A DNA stretch of 64,000 nucleotides, from contig JAQGPJ010000071.1 of the NCBI GenBank assembly GCA_028293125.1, forward strand, positions 1 to 64,000. Direction: 5' to 3'. A program made the translations under genes and the position numbers. The DNA comes from Verrucomicrobiales bacterium. Its GTDB lineage: Bacteria > Verrucomicrobiota > Verrucomicrobiia > Verrucomicrobiales > V1-33. Under the pieces are notes generated by a model. It did not search any database and was not told where the DNA came from. It was given only the letters and a program-made list of their open reading frames with translations. Shown here in pieces: positions 18,078 to 57,661 of this stretch; the first letter of the stretch is position 1, and every line of letters starts with the position of its first letter.

Positions 18078-20111
18078 TTACTGGGCGGTGCAGCGCAGGA
18101 TGGTGACATGCCAGCGGCCTTGCTCGGGATGGCCGGAGGGGGCTTTGGCGGGTTCGGAGCTCAGAATCTGGAAAGGGCGGGGGGAGAAGGCAGGGCTCGC
18201 TTCGTTCACGAAGCGTTCGGGCCGCGGGAGGGTTCCGTCCCCGGCGGCGGCTTTTTCGAGCTGGAGCAGCGTGGGCTGAGTCAGGGTGGCGTTGGTGTGG
18301 GCAAGACGAAGCTGGAGCTTTCCTTTTCCGGGCTCGCCTGCCGGGAGGAAGTCAGGAGAGTTGCTGAGAGGGTCGCTTTCGAATCCGGGCTCGCCTGCTG
18401 GCAGGAGGGCAAGGGAGTTGTTCAGGGAGTATATTTCGAACTCGGTGGGCAGAAGAAGTCCGGCTGCGGTGCGGAGGCTGCCGAGAGGGATCGGAGTTTC
18501 GACCCCGGCCAGGATCTCCGGTCGTGAAGCGGCATCGCCGGCGATCTGGAGGTAGGCAAGACTGTGGGCCGTCCCCTCCTCCGTCAGGCGCTCCAGCAGG
18601 GCTTTGGCCTGCACGGGTGAGTCGCGGAGGATTTTGAGTTTGGCCGCATCACCCGGGGTCAGGGAGATAATCTCGCTGGAGAGTTCGGGCTGGGCACCGG
18701 CTGCTGATTTGTGCTGGGTGCTGCTGTCACCGCCTGCCCCGACGACTTTCAGAAGGCTGATCTGCATCACGCTTTGCTCCGAATGCTGGTCTTTGAAAAA
18801 GGAGGGCAGCGTGACCGCGCCCAGACAGTAGGCGCCTCCCGGGCGCACGTTGAGCACCGCCGAGAGTTTCAGGACCGGGAAGGAAGGGCAATGAACCTGG
18901 GCACCGGGGCCTCCATTTTCCGGGGATTCCGGCCAGGAAAATATTTCTGGCGCGGCATACGATTGAAGCCCGATGCGGAGCCGCGTCAGGCCGGAAGCAT
19001 TGGGTTTGTCCGCAGTAACCTCGAAGGTGCGGCCGAGATTTTTGAATTCAAATGATTTTGGCGTTAGGAAGTCGCTATGTTCCGTGGCGTACATAAATTC
19101 TTCAATCGTCTCGAGGCTGGCCGTTGTCGTTGCGGAGGCAAAAGGATCATTTGGCTTCGGTGCAGGGGCCGCCTGGGAGGGTTCCACCCGCAGAATCGAA
19201 TGGTCGTGGAGCACCGCTTTTTGCGTGGCGCTAGCCTGCAGGAGGCTGTCAAGGAGCGCGTGGTCATCGCCGCTTTGCTGACGGAGGTCCAGCAGATGGC
19301 GGCCGTCGGCGGTGGGCAGGCGGAAAGTGATGGCGTGAAGGCGCAGGGCGGTGCCTCTGCCGGATTTGGCGGCGGGTTTGCCCATTTCCGGGGCGGCTTT
19401 GGCGAAGGTGAGGCAATATTCGTCGTTTTTCTCCAAAGTCTCACCGGCACGGCGGACCACGGAGATCAGATGGTGCCGGGCATCGGTGCTTTTAAAAAGC
19501 GCATGCGTTTTTTCCGTGAGAAATTGCGGGCCGTCCAGGCTGCCGGTGGCGGAAACGGAAACGGAGGGAAGGCTCACGGGCAAGGAGCGGATCCGGTCGC
19601 TCCGGATGCTCTCCACGGACAATGAACCGAGCACTCCGGAGGAGGCCGGGTTGCCGGGGTTTCGTGGCAAGAGTTTGAATTCCGCTCCCACGGCAAGACC
19701 GCAGTTTCTAAATTCAAAAGACTGCGGGACCATTTCGAGACCGCCGCGCTGAAGGGTGTATTCCGAGGGGTAGGGTGTTTCCTTGACGCTTTCGAGACTT
19801 TGGCCTCCGAAAACTTCGGCTCCTGTGCTGGCGGGAATGGTGTAATGCTGGTCGGCGGTGAGTTCGGCGCCGCCGTCGCTGACCATGCCGGCGAGACGGA
19901 TAAAGAGCGCCTCATCGGAGTCGGGCGCTTCATGGAGCAGGGTGAGTGGAAGAGCGGGTCCGGTGACTTTGAAAACCGTGGTCTGCACTTGGATATTTCC
20001 AGGGGGAGCCGTTCTTTCGTTTTCCTGTGCCCTGACAGTCGAAAGGCTGCACCCGGAAAAAAGAGCAATAGCCAGAGCCAGAGCCGGAGCAAAGGACAGG
20101 GAGGATTTCAT
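18078..20111 (-). CDS. Lipoprotein with three related modules, partner of the membrane-anchored sigma factor
   Basis: A 677-residue protein. The start at 20111 gives a signal peptide with lipobox FSGC (Cys21). The rest appears to contain three diverged copies of one beta-rich module (roughly 38-230, 255-450 and 460-677). Copies 1 and 2 share the motif SFEF-(R/K)-N-x-G at residues 131-138 and 353-360. Residues 374-394 of copy 2 (G-L, then YAAPE at 385-389 and WP at 393-394) match the extracytoplasmic part of the adjacent sigma factor with the same spacing. I do not recognise a named domain. The start lies 5 bp after the sigma-factor stop, so translation is probably coupled. It likely sits in the envelope and works with that sigma factor. 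Confidence 0.75.
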   Translation of the reverse strand: MKSSLSFAPALALAIALFSGCSLSTVRAQENERTAPPGNIQVQTTVFKVTGPALPLTLLHEAPDSDEALFIRLAGMVSDGGAELTADQHYTIPASTGAEVFGGQSLESVKETPYPSEYTLQRGGLEMVPQSFEFRNCGLAVGAEFKLLPRNPGNPASSGVLGSLSVESIRSDRIRSLPVSLPSVSVSATGSLDGPQFLTEKTHALFKSTDARHHLISVVRRAGETLEKNDEYCLTFAKAAPEMGKPAAKSGRGTALRLHAITFRLPTADGRHLLDLRQQSGDDHALLDSLLQASATQKAVLHDHSILRVEPSQAAPAPKPNDPFASATTTASLETIEEFMYATEHSDFLTPKSFEFKNLGRTFEVTADKPNASGLTRLRIGLQSYAAPEIFSWPESPENGGPGAQVHCPSFPVLKLSAVLNVRPGGAYCLGAVTLPSFFKDQHSEQSVMQISLLKVVGAGGDSSTQHKSAAGAQPELSSEIISLTPGDAAKLKILRDSPVQAKALLERLTEEGTAHSLAYLQIAGDAASRPEILAGVETPIPLGSLRTAAGLLLPTEFEIYSLNNSLALLPAGEPGFESDPLSNSPDFLPAGEPGKGKLQLRLAHTNATLTQPTLLQLEKAAAGDGTLPRPERFVNEASPAFSPRPFQILSSEPAKAPSGHPEQGRWHVTILRCTAQ

Positions 20112-20116
20112 AGCGG

Positions 20117-21631
20117 TCAGGAGGGATTGAGAGTGACAAAGAGGAGGAGACTGCGGGGCTCGGGAAAGGCGTCGGGGAGGACGGAGGAGGGCAGGTGCTG
20201 GATGAAAAGCAGGCGTGGTTCGTTCTCCTGGAGATTCCCGCTGCGGCCGCTGGCGGCAGCCTCGTGAAAGTCCTCCATTTTGATGCTCCGTTCGGGATCG
20301 GCTGTGGGTTTTTCCAGTGAGATCGGCCAGGCGTGAGGCTCCGGCGCGGCGTAGTGGTGGCGGATCCTCCAAGTCAGTTCGAGCCCGTCCGCTTCGGATG
20401 CGCTGACGGTGCCGCCGATCCAGGTGCCCAATTTTTTGGTCTCCTTGTTCGACTCCATGGCTTTGCCCACATCGTTCTCCTGGTCCCAGAACCAACCATC
20501 GGCGTAATCATAGTCGTGGGTCTTTTCGAATTGGACCGCGCGGCCCAGGGAAGCGGAAAGGTCAAAATCCTCCAGCTTTCCGCCGGATTGGGACAGACCG
20601 CGCGCTTCCGCCAGCAGGGCGGCGTCATTCGCCGGGCTGGTTTGGTAAGTCAGGAGCCGGACGGCGAGAAATTTGGCGGGAAGGTCCACGATGGTGTAGC
20701 GCAGAAGGAGGGTGGGGCCTTGGGCGGCGGGTTTATTTCCGGATGGGGCCGCCGCGCTGGAGGCAGTGGCCAAAGCCGCCGGTCCGCCGCTGAACCAGCC
20801 GCTTTTGGCGACCGCCCAGACGCCGCCGGCGAAAATGAGAATCACGGCGGCGGCAGGCAGGGAAAACCGGCGCATCAGGGAGATAAGAGGCTTGGTGGCC
20901 GCCAGCGGACCGGCGGCGGTGGCTTGCCGCCATGCGGCTCCAGGCAGCGTGGCGGCGGGACCGACGGGGACGGAGGCGCTGGCGTGCTCGGTAAGAAACT
21001 GGGCGAGCAGCGCGGCGGTGAGGAGGATTCCCCGGCGGCGGAAAAGCGTCCGCAGTTTTTCGAGGGCGCGGGTGATGCGTTTGCGGGCGGCCTCCTCGGA
21101 ATATCCCAGCGCGGCTCCGACGGAGCGGAGATCCTGCCGCTGGTAAAACCGGAGCAGCAGGACCTCCCGGTCGGCTTTGGAAAGCTGGTCCAGGGCGGCG
21201 TCCAGGAAAGGGCCGGCCTCCGACCAGGCGGAGTCTGAGCCAGAGGCGTCGGCGGCAGAGGAGGTCATAGGGTTGTCCTGATCAATATCACGGCGGAGTT
21301 CAGCGGCGCGGTGCTCGCGGGCGCGGCGGCGGATTTCCGTGCGCACCATCTTGCGGGCGGTGAAACAGGTGTGCCGGTGCAGCCAGCCGGCGGCCACGGT
21401 GCCGGGCGGGAGTTGAGGCGCCTTCCGGGCAAAATCCGTCAGGACAATCTGCGAGACATCCTCGGCCAGGGCGGCGTCACCATTGACCAGGCGCCGGGCG
21501 GTGGACCAGATCAGGGGGAGATGCCGGCCCGCCAGCAGGCGGAAAGTCTCTCCGGTGGGCGCGGCTTGATAGCGTGTGAACAGCGCGGCATCGCTGTCCG
21601 GCGGGAGGAGGAGGGAATCACGGTTCGACAT
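20117..21631 (-). CDS. ECF-type RNA polymerase sigma factor with transmembrane helix and extracytoplasmic extension
   Basis: A 504-residue protein. Region 2 (about residues 28-102) contains GDAALAEDVSQIVLTDFARKA. Region 4 (about 143-198) contains LSKADREVLLLRFYQRQDLRSVGAALGYSEEAARKRITRALEKLR, the promoter -35 binding helix-turn-helix. A linker leads to one hydrophobic helix at 257-275, then about 225 residues that should lie outside the cytoplasmic membrane. In that part G416-L, YAAPE at 427-431 and WP at 435-436 match the neighbouring lipoprotein. Sigma factors fused to a membrane domain in this way are known in Verrucomicrobiota and related phyla; the fusion could replace a separate anti-sigma factor. 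The target promoters are unknown. Confidence 0.85.
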   Translation of the reverse strand: MSNRDSLLLPPDSDAALFTRYQAAPTGETFRLLAGRHLPLIWSTARRLVNGDAALAEDVSQIVLTDFARKAPQLPPGTVAAGWLHRHTCFTARKMVRTEIRRRAREHRAAELRRDIDQDNPMTSSAADASGSDSAWSEAGPFLDAALDQLSKADREVLLLRFYQRQDLRSVGAALGYSEEAARKRITRALEKLRTLFRRRGILLTAALLAQFLTEHASASVPVGPAATLPGAAWRQATAAGPLAATKPLISLMRRFSLPAAAVILIFAGGVWAVAKSGWFSGGPAALATASSAAAPSGNKPAAQGPTLLLRYTIVDLPAKFLAVRLLTYQTSPANDAALLAEARGLSQSGGKLEDFDLSASLGRAVQFEKTHDYDYADGWFWDQENDVGKAMESNKETKKLGTWIGGTVSASEADGLELTWRIRHHYAAPEPHAWPISLEKPTADPERSIKMEDFHEAAASGRSGNLQENEPRLLFIQHLPSSVLPDAFPEPRSLLLFVTLNPS

Positions 21632-21652: not shown

Positions 21653-22669
21653 TTAGAACCCGCCCAAGCCGGGACCGGACAGACTATTTTCGAATCCCTT
21701 GGAAGCGTCTCGGAGAGGCCGTTTTTCCGTCTCCCGGTTCCAGCGCGCGCGGCCGCCTGCGGAATTCTGTATCAGCTCTCCCGCCCTGAAGCTGGCCGCC
21801 TCCGGGCCTTCACTCATTTTTGCCAGCGCGGCCAGGGCGGCGGCGGGGTTATGATCCCAGAGTTTTAAAAACAGAGTGGCGGCCCAGGGCTCGGGCAAGC
21901 CCGCCAGATCCCGCCGCTAGTCCCGATCCTCAGGAAGTTTCTCCTGTGTCAGATAGTGGAAAGTCCCATAAGCGGCCCAGGCGGCGGCGGGATCCTGAGT
22001 GGACTGAAGCCCGAGGACCACGGCGATGAGATGCGCCTTCGCGGCGTCATCCTGCGGAAGCGCGGCGGCCCAGTCCAGAGCCCCGGCGAACTCCGCAGGT
22101 TTGAGAGCCGAAAGGCGCAGGGAGGCCCGGGCTTTGGCGGGGCGGTCCGCGCCTCATTTCAAATCATGGGCGGCTTCCGTGATCAGCGTGCGCCAGTCCC
22201 CCGCCGGACCGGCCAAGGCAAATTCAAGAGGACGGAGCCCGCCCAAGGTTCCGGAAGGAGTGCTGATATTGACGGCACCACTACTAGCAGCGGCGGAGGA
22301 CGCGGGAGCCGGATTTTCCAAGGCCGCCGCCGCGTATCCCGCCGCAGTTGCGCAGGCTCTGGCCAAGGTCAGGATGGCGGCGCGTCCCGCCAAAGGCAGA
22401 GTCAGGAAGACCGGTGCCGGGGCAGGCGGCAGGACATCGGCCGGTGCGGAACCCTGCAGGCTGGAGGAGAGTCCCGCCGCCAAGGCTGCCACGGGCACCA
22501 TCAGAACTTGGCGACGGAAAATGACGGCCAGTTTCTCCAATGCCCGTGAGGCCCTGCGCTGCACCGCCGCCTCCGTTTCTCTTCTCATCTCCGCTTCTTT
22601 GGATTGCCGTGTGGCGAAGTCGCCGCGCTTTAGCCGCACGTTGGCGCTCCGGCGCATAGATTGCGGCAT
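21653..22669 (-). pseudogene. Decayed sigma-factor-related gene with DP-x-A-A repeat C-terminus
   Basis: One reading frame runs through this span but contains two stops (TGA at 22154-22156 and TAG at 21917-21919). The N-terminal part keeps a remnant of sigma region 4 (SKEAEMRRETEAAVQRRASRALEKL followed by AVIFRRQ), as in ECF factors with an extension. Then come a hydrophobic stretch and Ala-rich segments including DWAAALPQDDAAKAHL, STQDPAAAWAAY and LWDHNPAAALAAL, the same repeat style as the long repeat proteins at 28805 and 55499. Region 2 is missing. The frame ends 21 bp upstream of the intact sigma gene. It is most likely a non-functional relic of a second membrane-anchored sigma factor. 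Confidence 0.65.
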
Positions 22670-28804: not shown

Positions 28805-30121
28805 CTAACTCCGGCGGCGGCCTCCGCCGTCACGGGGCGGATTGAGGATGGCTTCGCGCACAGCCGGAGGGACATTGGAGGTCTGCAGCCAGTTGCTGGC
28901 GGACGCCGGGTCACGGCGGAACCACATCTGGCCGGTGCGCGTCAGCGTCTGGTTGCGGGATTGGGGATCACTGATGGTTTTAGCCCAGATCAAAGCGGAT
29001 TCGGGATCCTCGCGGGACAGGGTGCGGACGAATCCGCCGACGGCGGAGTCCTTGGCCGGGGAGTTGGGCATATCGGCGAGATACTGGCTGGCGGCCATAG
29101 GGTCCTTCTGCGTCCATTCGCGCAGGGCGGAAAAGCTGCCCTCCGACCGGCTGTTGCCTTCTTGGAGCGTGTCCAACCATGCCATGGCGGCCTTTGGGTC
29201 ACGGCCCGCCCATTGCGCTCCAATCTCCTCCACCACCTGCGTTCCGTAGTCCGTGGAGGCGAATTTGGCGGCCCATGCCGAGGCGGCGGCCGGATCCCGG
29301 CGGGCATACGCCTCGGCGATACTCTCAAGGGCCTCTCCTTTGAGGGTGCCCTCCGGCAGCGATTCCCCCCAGGCGGCGGCGGCGACGGGACCGCTTTTGC
29401 GCAACTGCTCGGCGGTCACGGTTTCAAGATAGGATTCCGCCTGCTTGTCGCCGGCCTTGGCACGCGCATAGGCGTAGTCGGTCGCCCTGCCGATATCATG
29501 GTCGGCGAGACCGGCCACCAGGTTGCCGCGCATCCGCTCCTTGTCCTCGCCATCCTTCTGGGTGTCGAGCCAGGCGACGGCGGCATCCGGATTTTTTCCG
29601 GCCCAGCCGGGCAGGATCTCGTTCAGGAAACGGTTTTTGCGCCCACCCTCCAAGGTTTCGGCATGGGCCAGGGCCCCTTTGCCGTCCATGGCTCCCCACG
29701 CATAAAGAAAGAGACGCCACTGGTCGCCTCCGGCCTGATTGCCGCGCATGGTCTCCATCAGGGAGGTCACATTCTCCGGGGTCATGGATTCCAGCAATTT
29801 GGAGAAAGCCAGATTCCGGGTCAGGGGATTCGGATCGCTGAAGGCGTCCTTGGAGAGTTTTTCAAGCTGCGCCTTTGTCAGAATGGCTTTAAGGGCGGCC
29901 TGATTTTCCCCTCCGCCGGCTTTGCCGTCCTTCTGAGCGCCGCCCGGAAGGCCGCGGGGATTCAGAGCATCGGACTGGGCCTGCATCCGGAGCGCGGTGA
30001 GGCTGTTGGAGGCGGTGGTGTCCGGCTGCTGGCTCCGTGCCAGATAATAGCCAAAGACAAAGGTTCCGGCCGCGAACAGGGTCCACAGCGCGTGCGTCCG
30101 GATCAGTCCTTTTTTGTTCAT
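28805..30121 (-). CDS. Membrane-anchored DP-x-A-A-x-x-W repeat protein
   Basis: A 438-residue protein with one N-terminal hydrophobic segment (ALWTLFAAGTFVFGYYLA), a signal anchor or uncleaved signal peptide. The C-terminal 330 residues are short helical repeats of about 30-35 residues with signatures such as GKNPDAAVAWLDT, RRDPAAASAWAAKF, GRDPKAAMAWLDTL, QKDPMAASQYLADM and REDPESALIWAKTI. It is a paralogue of the longer protein at 55499-57661. Repeats of this kind should form an alpha-solenoid for protein binding in the periplasm; no enzyme motif is seen. The frame ends at Arg/Ser-rich GGGRRRS. Confidence 0.8.
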   Translation of the reverse strand: MNKKGLIRTHALWTLFAAGTFVFGYYLARSQQPDTTASNSLTALRMQAQSDALNPRGLPGGAQKDGKAGGGENQAALKAILTKAQLEKLSKDAFSDPNPLTRNLAFSKLLESMTPENVTSLMETMRGNQAGGDQWRLFLYAWGAMDGKGALAHAETLEGGRKNRFLNEILPGWAGKNPDAAVAWLDTQKDGEDKERMRGNLVAGLADHDIGRATDYAYARAKAGDKQAESYLETVTAEQLRKSGPVAAAAWGESLPEGTLKGEALESIAEAYARRDPAAASAWAAKFASTDYGTQVVEEIGAQWAGRDPKAAMAWLDTLQEGNSRSEGSFSALREWTQKDPMAASQYLADMPNSPAKDSAVGGFVRTLSREDPESALIWAKTISDPQSRNQTLTRTGQMWFRRDPASASNWLQTSNVPPAVREAILNPPRDGGGRRRS

Positions 30122-55498: not shown

Positions 55499-57661
55499 CT
55501 ACTGCAGCTTGCGCATCAGCTCCTGGCGGTCGGTATCGTTGAAGCCGGCGGCGTCCAGAGCGGCATGGGCGGCCTCGCGGTTGCCGTTGGCTTTCCAGCC
55601 TTGGAGGGCAGTGGCGGCGGCCTCCCGGCGGCGGGAATCGTCACCGATGCTGAGCGCCCAAGTCCAGGCGCTTTCAGGATCGTCGCGGGCAATGGTGCCG
55701 ACCAGATTGCCGGTGGCCAGATCGCGGCTTTTGCCTTCGGGCAAATTCTGCACCCACTGGGAGGCGGCCACAGCATCGTAGCCCGCCCAGGCGGCGACCA
55801 CGCCGGCGGAGGCCTCGTCGCGCGCTCCGCCTTCGGGAAGGGTCAGAGCCCAGGCGGCGGCCTTCGCGGCGTCGGTCTGCGCCAGTTGGGCCGCCACATT
55901 GCGGGCCACGGCCTGGTTTTCGGATTTGGCGGCGTCCTCCGCCGTCATGCCGGAGGCGAAGCGCGCATACAGCGACTGCACCCGGTCCGGGTCTTGGGAG
56001 GCGGCCTGCTCCACCACTTTGCTGAGAGCTGCGGTGCGGTCGGAGCCGGTCAGCCCGGAGGCCCACTTCTCGGCCTCGGACAGGCTGCGTCCAATGAGGC
56101 TGTCGGCCACGCTGCGGGTGATCTCAGCGCGGGTGTCAGGATTGGAGATTTTGGCGATCTCCTGACCGGCTTTCTCCGGATCGGTCTGGGCCCAGATGCC
56201 GATGGCGGAGGTCAGCGCGGCTTTCCGCTGGGCCTCGGTGCCCAGCCCCTGGGCCCACTCCACGGCCTTCTCCGGACTGCTCCAGGCCAGATTGGAAACC
56301 ACTTGGGCCGCCACCTCCGGAGTCTGGGAAACCGGCTGCAGTTTGCCGAAAAGATTCATGGCCTCCTCCGGCTGGGAATAGCCCAGCGCGCCCACCGCCC
56401 GCGCCATCGCCTGCTCCCGGATGGAGGCGATGGGAATGTTCTTGAGCGAGGCCACCAGCTTGGACGGATCGGACTCCAGCTGATTCCAGAGTCCTCCCTC
56501 ATAGATGGTGCGAGCCAGATTGGCGGGCAGGGTGGCCGCCAGTTTCAGCAGCTTGTCCCGGTTCTCATCGGTCACGTTTCCCGCCAGCGCACCCAGCGCG
56601 GCGGCCTTGTCGCTGAAATTTTTGAACTCCGACACCCGGCCCATGGCGCCATCAAAATCCCTGAGCGCCAGGGAGCTCATGGCCTGATTGATGATGCCGG
56701 TGCGGTTGTTGCCGACATCCGCTTTCCTCAGGGCCGCCAAGCATTTATCCGGATCGATCTGACTCAGGGTCTGAATGGCGGCCGAGGTGGCATTCACCCT
56801 CTCGTGGGCGGTGGGCAGCGCGGAGGCCCAGGCGGTTGCGGATTCAAAATCCGAAGCCGCCCAGCGGGAGGCCAAGCCGCTGATGGCGGAGTTCCGGGTC
56901 TGGCCCGCCGGCAGCTTCATGGTGGCGGCACCCGCCGCCTGCGGATCCCGTGTCCCCCACTGGGCCATCAGATTCTGCATGGCCCAGGGCCGGTCCGCAG
57001 TTTGGCTGTTGGAAGCCAGATCAAAAGCCTTTTGAGGATCCGTGGCGCTGAGGGCGTTGAGGATGATCCGCCGGGACTCATTCCGCATGGTTCCCATTTT
57101 ATTGGCGGTTTCCCAAGCCTGATTGGAGTCTTTATTTGCCAGGACCGCAAAGGCCGCGTTCATGGTCTGATACCGGAAAAACTGATCGCCGGTGGTTTTG
57201 GCGGCTTGGAGCACCGCCTCGGGATCCAGCTCCGCCCAGCGGGTGAACACGGCATCGTAAAGCTGATAGGAATTCCGGTCACCGAACCACCCCTTGCCCA
57301 AGGAGGACATGGCGGCGGCGCGGGCGGAGGCGGCGTCGAGACCGGCGGCGAACTGGAGGATGGCGGCTTGGTTTTTCAGCCCGCCGCCCGGAGTCAGCGA
57401 CTTCAGCAGTTTCTGCGCCCGGTCTCCCGCCGCGCCTGCCGGAGTGGCTGTTTTACCAGCCGCCCCCGGACCCGCCGCCCCCGGCGGGAGTTTCTGTTCC
57501 TCAGGAACCGGCACCAGGAGGGTGCTGTTCCCGACACCCCTGACAGCGGCTCCCAAGGGAGCTGGGCCACGGCCGGGCGCGGTGTATCGGCCGGCTGCGA
57601 AAACAGCAGCGGCGGAAATGGTCAATAGAGCACCGGTGCGGAGTCGGGAGGATAGGCGCAT
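55499..57661 (-). CDS. Long DP-x-A-A-x-x-W-A repeat protein, exported
   Basis: A 720-residue protein with a signal peptide or signal anchor (TGALLTISAAAVFAAGRYTA). A Pro/Gly/Ala linker leads to many helical repeats of 30-40 residues with signatures ELDPEAVLQAA, STDPQKAFDLA, RDPQAAGAAT, SDFESATAWASALP, SSPEKAVEWAQGL, TDPEKAGQEIA and RDDPESAWTWAL. It is the longer paralogue of the protein at 28805-30121; the two share N-terminal architecture and repeat consensus. An alpha-solenoid scaffold in the periplasm is the likely form, of unknown partners. It is convergent with the small membrane protein gene. Confidence 0.85.
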   Translation of the reverse strand: MRLSSRLRTGALLTISAAAVFAAGRYTAPGRGPAPLGAAVRGVGNSTLLVPVPEEQKLPPGAAGPGAAGKTATPAGAAGDRAQKLLKSLTPGGGLKNQAAILQFAAGLDAASARAAAMSSLGKGWFGDRNSYQLYDAVFTRWAELDPEAVLQAAKTTGDQFFRYQTMNAAFAVLANKDSNQAWETANKMGTMRNESRRIILNALSATDPQKAFDLASNSQTADRPWAMQNLMAQWGTRDPQAAGAATMKLPAGQTRNSAISGLASRWAASDFESATAWASALPTAHERVNATSAAIQTLSQIDPDKCLAALRKADVGNNRTGIINQAMSSLALRDFDGAMGRVSEFKNFSDKAAALGALAGNVTDENRDKLLKLAATLPANLARTIYEGGLWNQLESDPSKLVASLKNIPIASIREQAMARAVGALGYSQPEEAMNLFGKLQPVSQTPEVAAQVVSNLAWSSPEKAVEWAQGLGTEAQRKAALTSAIGIWAQTDPEKAGQEIAKISNPDTRAEITRSVADSLIGRSLSEAEKWASGLTGSDRTAALSKVVEQAASQDPDRVQSLYARFASGMTAEDAAKSENQAVARNVAAQLAQTDAAKAAAWALTLPEGGARDEASAGVVAAWAGYDAVAASQWVQNLPEGKSRDLATGNLVGTIARDDPESAWTWALSIGDDSRRREAAATALQGWKANGNREAAHAALDAAGFNDTDRQELMRKLQ

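Follow-up and report, generated by a model that had tools for sequence, protein, structure and literature searches.

We found that two adjoining genes on the minus strand of a Verrucomicrobiales genome, at 18078-21631 of a 64,000-nucleotide stretch of DNA (positions 1 to 64,000 of contig JAQGPJ010000071.1, assembly GCA_028293125.1; hereafter the window), encode a membrane-anchored sigma factor of the extracytoplasmic function (ECF) type and an exported partner protein that carries the same outer module. The computed layout consists of an ECF sigma domain, one helix, a secretin-like module on the far side of the membrane, and a tightly coupled exported partner with two, possibly three, such modules. 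The common module is no new fold but a degenerate secretin beta-domain, of which the sigma extension holds one copy; the relationship between sigma factor and partner stands well above chance by profile and fold. The exact secretin-type pair is rare, occurring twice in its own genome and in no other sampled genome, and the locus belongs to a large Verrucomicrobiales family of membrane-anchored sigma factors with variable outer modules that are often matched by the next gene. As a rule, a sigma factor is controlled by an anti-sigma protein separate from it; the layout of a sigma factor with a look-alike partner suggests that the cell envelope is sensed in a modular way.

The open frame 20117-21631 on the minus strand encodes a 504-residue sigma factor with Pfam matches to Sigma70_r4 (6.1e-11) and Sigma70_r2 (5.7e-6), PF04542, PF04545 and PF08281 all lying above their cut-offs, and with a match to the NCBIfam model sigma70-ECF (TIGR02937) at 1.5e-16 (60.4 bits vs a cut-off of 42.9). 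Regions 2 and 4 are present and region 3 is absent, which places the protein among the ECF sigma factors. A single hydrophobic helix at about residues 250-276 is followed by a C-terminal extension of about 225 residues, so that helix and outer domain lie C-terminal to region 4, as in membrane-fused ECF sigma factors; frame, Pfam and hydropathy thus all agree with an earlier note on this DNA, which had read the gene in this way from its letters. Besides the sigma regions, Pfam and NCBIfam scans found nothing in the protein, and no anti-sigma segment of the zinc-finger or FecR type was matched by Pfam before the helix at E<1. The partner gene (18078-20111, minus strand) starts with an ATG at 20111, five bases past the sigma stop, just as the note had it, and encodes an exported protein of 677 residues that matches no Pfam or NCBIfam family. 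It begins with a signal sequence and a lipobox (FSGC, residues 18-21) and has no cytoplasmic anti-sigma domain of the classical kind, and STN, FecR, plug and TonB receptor barrel domains were found by Pfam in neither protein. The claim that no classical anti-sigma gene adjoins the sigma gene stands. The features of the sigma gene are as follows:

20117..21631, minus strand: membrane-anchored ECF sigma factor, 504 residues (open frame, Pfam, NCBIfam)
21338..21532, minus strand: sigma region 2, residues 34-98 (PF04542)
21050..21196, minus strand: sigma region 4, residues 146-194 (PF04545)
20927..21037, minus strand: linker before the helix, residues 199-235, RRG..LTAALLAQFL...VP (alignment of the examined membrane-anchored sigma factors)
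20804..20884, minus strand: predicted transmembrane helix, about residues 250-276 (hydropathy maxima at 249-267 and 256-274)
20120..20740, minus strand: sigma outer module, residues 298-504, secretin-like beta-domain (hhalign, AlphaFold2, PDB matches)
20324..20386, minus strand: G416..YAAPE..WP stretch of the sigma factor (sequence; a strand after a long hairpin in the model)
20112..20116, minus strand: gap of 5 base pairs (bp) from sigma stop to partner start (sequence)

A two-sequence profile of the partner led us to a remote relative from a different genome of the order, whose proteins consist of tandem exported modules of about 230 residues that match PF00263 (Secretin) below its threshold, at E 4.4e-4. 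A model of these distant tandem modules found matches in 257 of 289 genomes of the order, among them frames of 860-918 residues that we take to be full-length secretins. A hidden Markov model (HMM) of 51 module sequences matched the window partner at 2.4e-17 and the paralogous partner from the same genome at 5.5e-16, in modules 1 and 2, these E-values referring to a database of 16 sequences. For the sigma factor, an hhalign comparison of a two-sequence extension profile with the 51-module alignment ran from end to end (positions 3-195 of 199; P 5.8e-5), with a score of 35.7 vs a maximum of 25.1 in column shuffles, none of the 300 shuffles reaching it. As a control, the other sigma extensions and the coupled partners were run through hhalign as single sequences and gave no comparable secretin-like match. 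Direct two-sequence comparison of extension and partner yielded no better than P 0.0048 / 0.024, which we did not take as sufficient by itself.

AlphaFold2 models, built from an alignment of secretin-like modules with the own-genome paralogues left out, had predicted local distance difference test scores of 83.9 (sigma residues 298-504) and 90.5 (partner residues 250-462), and strands and helices follow one another in the same sequence in both. Upon searching the PDB with Foldseek, we obtained leading matches that were all secretins, both for the sigma module and for partner module 2. Structural alignment with VIA-align gave Z 11.3 for the sigma module against a secretin (133 aligned residues, 3.5 Å; best unrelated chain 6.7) and Z 12.1 for partner module 2 (141 aligned residues, 3.8 Å; best unrelated chain 4.7). 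Profile relationship and structural match over the whole module hence agree on a secretin-like fold in both parts, and the proposal that the sigma factor crosses the membrane and carries outside it a fold in common with the coupled gene is borne out; the lack of fold similarity that the note had named as refuting its view was not observed. Another sigma factor of the same genome, L028, looked secretin-like by eye and was backed neither by the module model nor by hhalign.

The partner had been read as a lipoprotein that seems to hold three diverged copies of the module, and the SFEF motifs named in that reading do occur within it as SFEFRNCG (131-138) and SFEFKNLG (353-360). Copies 1 and 2 are well supported, by the HMM and by self-comparison with hhalign, in which residues 256-367 match 40-145 at P 1.7e-4. 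The third copy is only suggestive, with a weak self-match of 534-568 to 107-142 (P 0.0065) and an independent E-value of 0.47 for the corresponding region of the paralogue. As to the lipid anchor, the window copy has its lipobox, and the anchor is neither conserved nor essential, since the signal sequence of the paralogous partner lacks the lipobox cysteine. The partner gene is laid out as follows:

18078..20111, minus strand: partner gene, exported protein of 677 residues (open frame, 51-module HMM)
20049..20111, minus strand: signal sequence with lipobox FSGC, residues 1-21 (sequence)
19371..20021, minus strand: partner module 1, about residues 31-247 (HMM independent E-value 7.1e-6 over 31-119; self-match to module 2)
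18726..19364, minus strand: partner module 2, residues 250-462, secretin-like (HMM independent E-value 1.2e-8 over 349-444; AlphaFold2; Z-score against secretin)
18081..18689, minus strand: possible third, degenerate module, about residues 475-677 (weak self-match)
18930..18992, minus strand: G374..YAAPE..WP stretch of partner module 2 (sequence; WP kept in the paralogue, YAAPE not)

The resemblance was first noticed in short motifs, and these are where the earlier note placed them: G416, YAAPE (427-431) and WP (435-436) in the sigma factor, G374, YAAPE (385-389) and WP (393-394) in the partner. Taken as letters alone, they are weak evidence of relationship, because 23% of shuffled pairs of the same composition have a common 5-mer and because YAAPE is absent from the paralogous partner, which has NSLVE in its place and retains WP only; the paralogous sigma factor retains YAAP..WP. 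A common 5-mer with at least four further nearby identities arises in 1.1% of shuffled pairs, and the real pair has five. These figures leave some room for the view that the motifs are coincidental and that sigma factor and partner are unrelated. We consider this view very improbable, since the full-length profile alignment outscores every shuffle and both models match secretins over their whole length. In both AlphaFold2 models the YAAPE/WP stretch sits on the strand after the long hairpin.

The exact pair recurs once in the same genome, on contig C5, where the sigma factor is 53% identical over residues 14-501, the partner is 37-39% identical, and the partner start lies within or directly next to the sigma stop. 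Searches of 12 further genomes of the family detected neither the extension nor the full partner, a named-genome scan with the partner returned no relative, and a scan of 388 genomes of the phylum with the extension gave no convincing further sigma fusion. Two marginal extension matches in the family- and phylum-wide scans (E 0.004 and 0.005) overlie unrelated genes and were discarded. The survey of gene pairing that the note called for confines the exact pair to two copies in one genome and finds the general layout, an anchored sigma factor with a coupled gene, widespread in the order.

Solo or tandem secretin-like modules are exported proteins present in nearly all sampled genomes of the order (Luteolibacter, Haloferula and Rubritalea among them; loci L084-L102 and L184-L263). 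We considered whether such genes stand beside membrane-anchored sigma factors elsewhere and rejected this, with no such case in 19 contexts. Some form tandem arrays of 2-6 solo module genes (L084-L102, e.g. L085:7667-10564), and some arrays adjoin a gene whose product resembles, by eye, a VIT-type exported protein. In a few relatives (L088, L090, L095 and L252), solo secretin-like module genes have a short ECF sigma gene, lacking the long extension, at a distance of about 0.5-3 kb.

The window sigma factor is one of many of its kind. Its own genome has 14 related sigma genes with long extensions, whose outer parts include the secretin-like type as well as WADPxxA repeats, which are helical, and further helical types, and related sigma factors were found at E<=1e-40 in 43 of 192 genomes of the order, with at least 18 in several genomes. 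At 40 of the 76 sigma loci with sequenced context, a same-strand next gene starts between -46 and +36 bp, often with a 4-bp overlap (a coupled gene being one that starts within 60 bp of the sigma end, as called by our own script); three of these 40 calls are doubtful, in that probably the L162 frame is spurious, L117 is an unrelated neighbour and the start of L034 is miscalled. In 36 of the 40 called genes the top-scoring hydrophobic segment begins no later than residue 13; the exceptions are L176 and the doubtful L034, L117 and L162, and an internal start in L034 would restore an N-terminal anchor. With an export signal at the N-terminus, 36 of 40 partners appear to have no room for a cytoplasmic anti-sigma domain, and any control would therefore act through the membrane or the periplasm.

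Single-linkage clustering of sequence matches placed sigma extension and own partner in one cluster at 27 of these 40 loci, vs a mean of 17.6 and a maximum of 24 in 20,000 permutations. Upon adding a helical-repeat profile, 31 of 40 were matched (permuted mean 24.8, maximum 29), although this relabelling loses L146, whose own pair matches directly at 9.7e-21 by phmmer. Most matched pairs are of the helical-repeat class; L146, L123 (direct match at 5.6e-7) and the window type represent three further module types that match their partners. It may be asked whether the partner chiefly serves as an output, being a surface or structural protein of an operon driven by the sigma factor, so that the resemblance of modules reflects gene duplication without direct contact. 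The arrays of solo secretin-like genes without adjoining anchored sigma factors would fit this, and gene coupling fits simple autoregulation as well. We nevertheless hold it unlikely, as module types match within pairs beyond permutation for more than one type, and as in many pairs the partner begins ahead of the sigma stop (gap -4), which implies coupled translation.

Alignment shows moderate conservation of the linker that joins region 4 to the helix, also among sigma factors whose outer modules are unrelated, which suggests a common sigma chassis. That the same chassis bears helical-repeat and other modules also bears on the idea that the outer modules read secretin assembly, with sigma factor and partner joining or mimicking secretin rings (of type IV pili or type II secretion) and reporting faulty secretin subunits. 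The secretin fold of both outer modules, the self-association of secretin domains (PMC11637429) and the wide occurrence of secretin-like modules in the order, full-length secretins included, would agree with such a readout. It could not, however, be the general job of a chassis that carries other modules too, and the pair at the window locus showed no link to any secretion operon, so that we judge this reading quite improbable.

Directly upstream of the window sigma gene lies a decayed second membrane-anchored sigma gene whose N-terminal half is missing:

21653..22669, minus strand: sigma remnant (region 4, linker, membrane segment and helical WADPxxA-type repeats, all in one frame; in-frame stops)

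Another broken copy of such a sigma gene, interrupted by TGA and TAA stops, lies on the same contig (L035, C88:171502-172328). Such broken copies suggest ongoing birth and loss of these genes. Within the window, 28805-30121 and 55499-57661 (both minus strand) encode proteins that resemble the WADPxxA-type helical repeats and match no Pfam family above cut-off.

For the pair itself, we propose by analogy that matched periplasmic modules bind and gate the proteolytic release of the sigma factor. The sigma factor would be kept inactive at the membrane, the partner would bind its outer module through like-with-like module contacts and so keep it intact, and an envelope signal would alter this contact; a periplasmic protease and then a site-2 protease would cut the sigma factor near the membrane, and the freed sigma domain would join RNA polymerase. 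The model for this is cell-surface signalling, where the STN domain of the anti-sigma protein and the signalling domain of the transducer share a fold, bind, and protect the anti-sigma protein from proteolysis while the signal is absent (PMC11637429). Within that system, IutY is a sigma/anti-sigma hybrid (PMC11637429, PMC8999054) that is anchored in the membrane and freed by proteolysis (PMC8999054). The joint duplication of both genes of the pair within their own genome counts in favour of the proposal. A variant without proteolysis is that the sigma factor is active while held at the membrane, in the manner of ToxR or CadC, and that the partner tunes its oligomeric state. The linker, conserved across unrelated modules, could then be a working tether. 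This variant appears distinctly unlikely, given that the characterised membrane-fused sigma factor IutY requires proteolysis for its release (PMC8999054) and that a membrane-bound holoenzyme would presumably reach few promoters.

Several observations weigh against release gated by matched modules. The window sigma extension has no significant HMMER match with the 51-module model, and the AlphaFold2 model of the sigma module depends on the homology claim, since its input alignment consisted of secretin-like modules and could bias it; the column-shuffle test does not share this dependence. Within the helical-repeat class, the similarity of own pairs does not clearly exceed that of non-partner pairs; with every class counted, phmmer matches at E<0.01 link 14 of 40 own pairs vs 15.6% of other pairs. 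Some coupled partners are unmatched, namely an exported thioredoxin-like protein at L111 and, at L116 and L118, a lipoprotein with DKN..YY repeats, and these may be adaptors of another kind. Lastly, the site-2 protease family is present in the genome but also in 14 of 14 control genomes, which lends the proposal weak support. Balancing these points, we put the full mechanism of binding and gated release a little short of an even chance. Its extension to the order is plausible, though we would sooner doubt than assert it: a Verrucomicrobiales signalling class might combine a common sigma chassis with interchangeable outer modules (secretin-like, helical repeat and others), each with a translationally coupled exported copy that sets the state of the sensor by like-with-like contact, and the window sigma factor would then be regulated by its secretin-like partner instead of an anti-sigma protein.

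The order as a whole appears to hold many sigma factors that act as membrane sensors, with a coupled exported partner that often has the same module. Should the partner be the regulator, these relatives of Akkermansia, a group in which regulation has, to our knowledge, been little studied, would have a signalling design that is both general and modular. The secretin fold would gain a use outside secretion, and since modules match one for one, swapping them would test partner specificity directly.

In the literature we found nothing on the Verrucomicrobiales sigma family or on secretin-like modules on sigma factors, a search of partial coverage in which absence is no proof. Membrane-fused ECF sigma factors as such are already known (IutY, ECF48/52/53), and the view of the earlier note, which knew of no described pair of this kind, was too strong, as cell-surface signalling offers STN-fold pairs and the anchored hybrid IutY (PMC11637429, PMC8999054). 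There, FecR/FoxR/PupR-type anti-sigma proteins and TonB-dependent transducers (and IutY, ECF243) likewise combine an anchored regulator with a coupled partner of the same secretin-related fold outside the cytoplasm, and in IutY the sigma factor itself is anchored (PMC11637429, PMC8999054). The fold in common is a short STN domain in cell-surface signalling and a secretin beta-domain in the window pair, which by Pfam lacks TonB receptor, FecR and STN, and whose partner is exported and has no receptor barrel. ECF48, ECF52 (e.g. SCO4117) and ECF53 resemble the window sigma factor in that the ECF sigma domain leads into a membrane helix and an outer domain, with no anti-sigma protein as a separate product (PMC8999054). 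These groups come from actinobacteria, zinc-finger anti-sigma segments are expected in them, and no matched partner gene has been described for them. The solo and tandem secretin-like proteins of Verrucomicrobiales have the same exported module and differ by the absence, across 19 contexts, of an anchored sigma factor beside them. With the secretin beta-domain itself (PF00263; GspD, PilQ, InvG, pIV), the window modules have the fold in common over the full module, as judged from profiles and models; they differ in having diverged below Pfam detection, in sitting on a sigma factor and an exported protein and, for the sigma module, in being tethered to the inner membrane.

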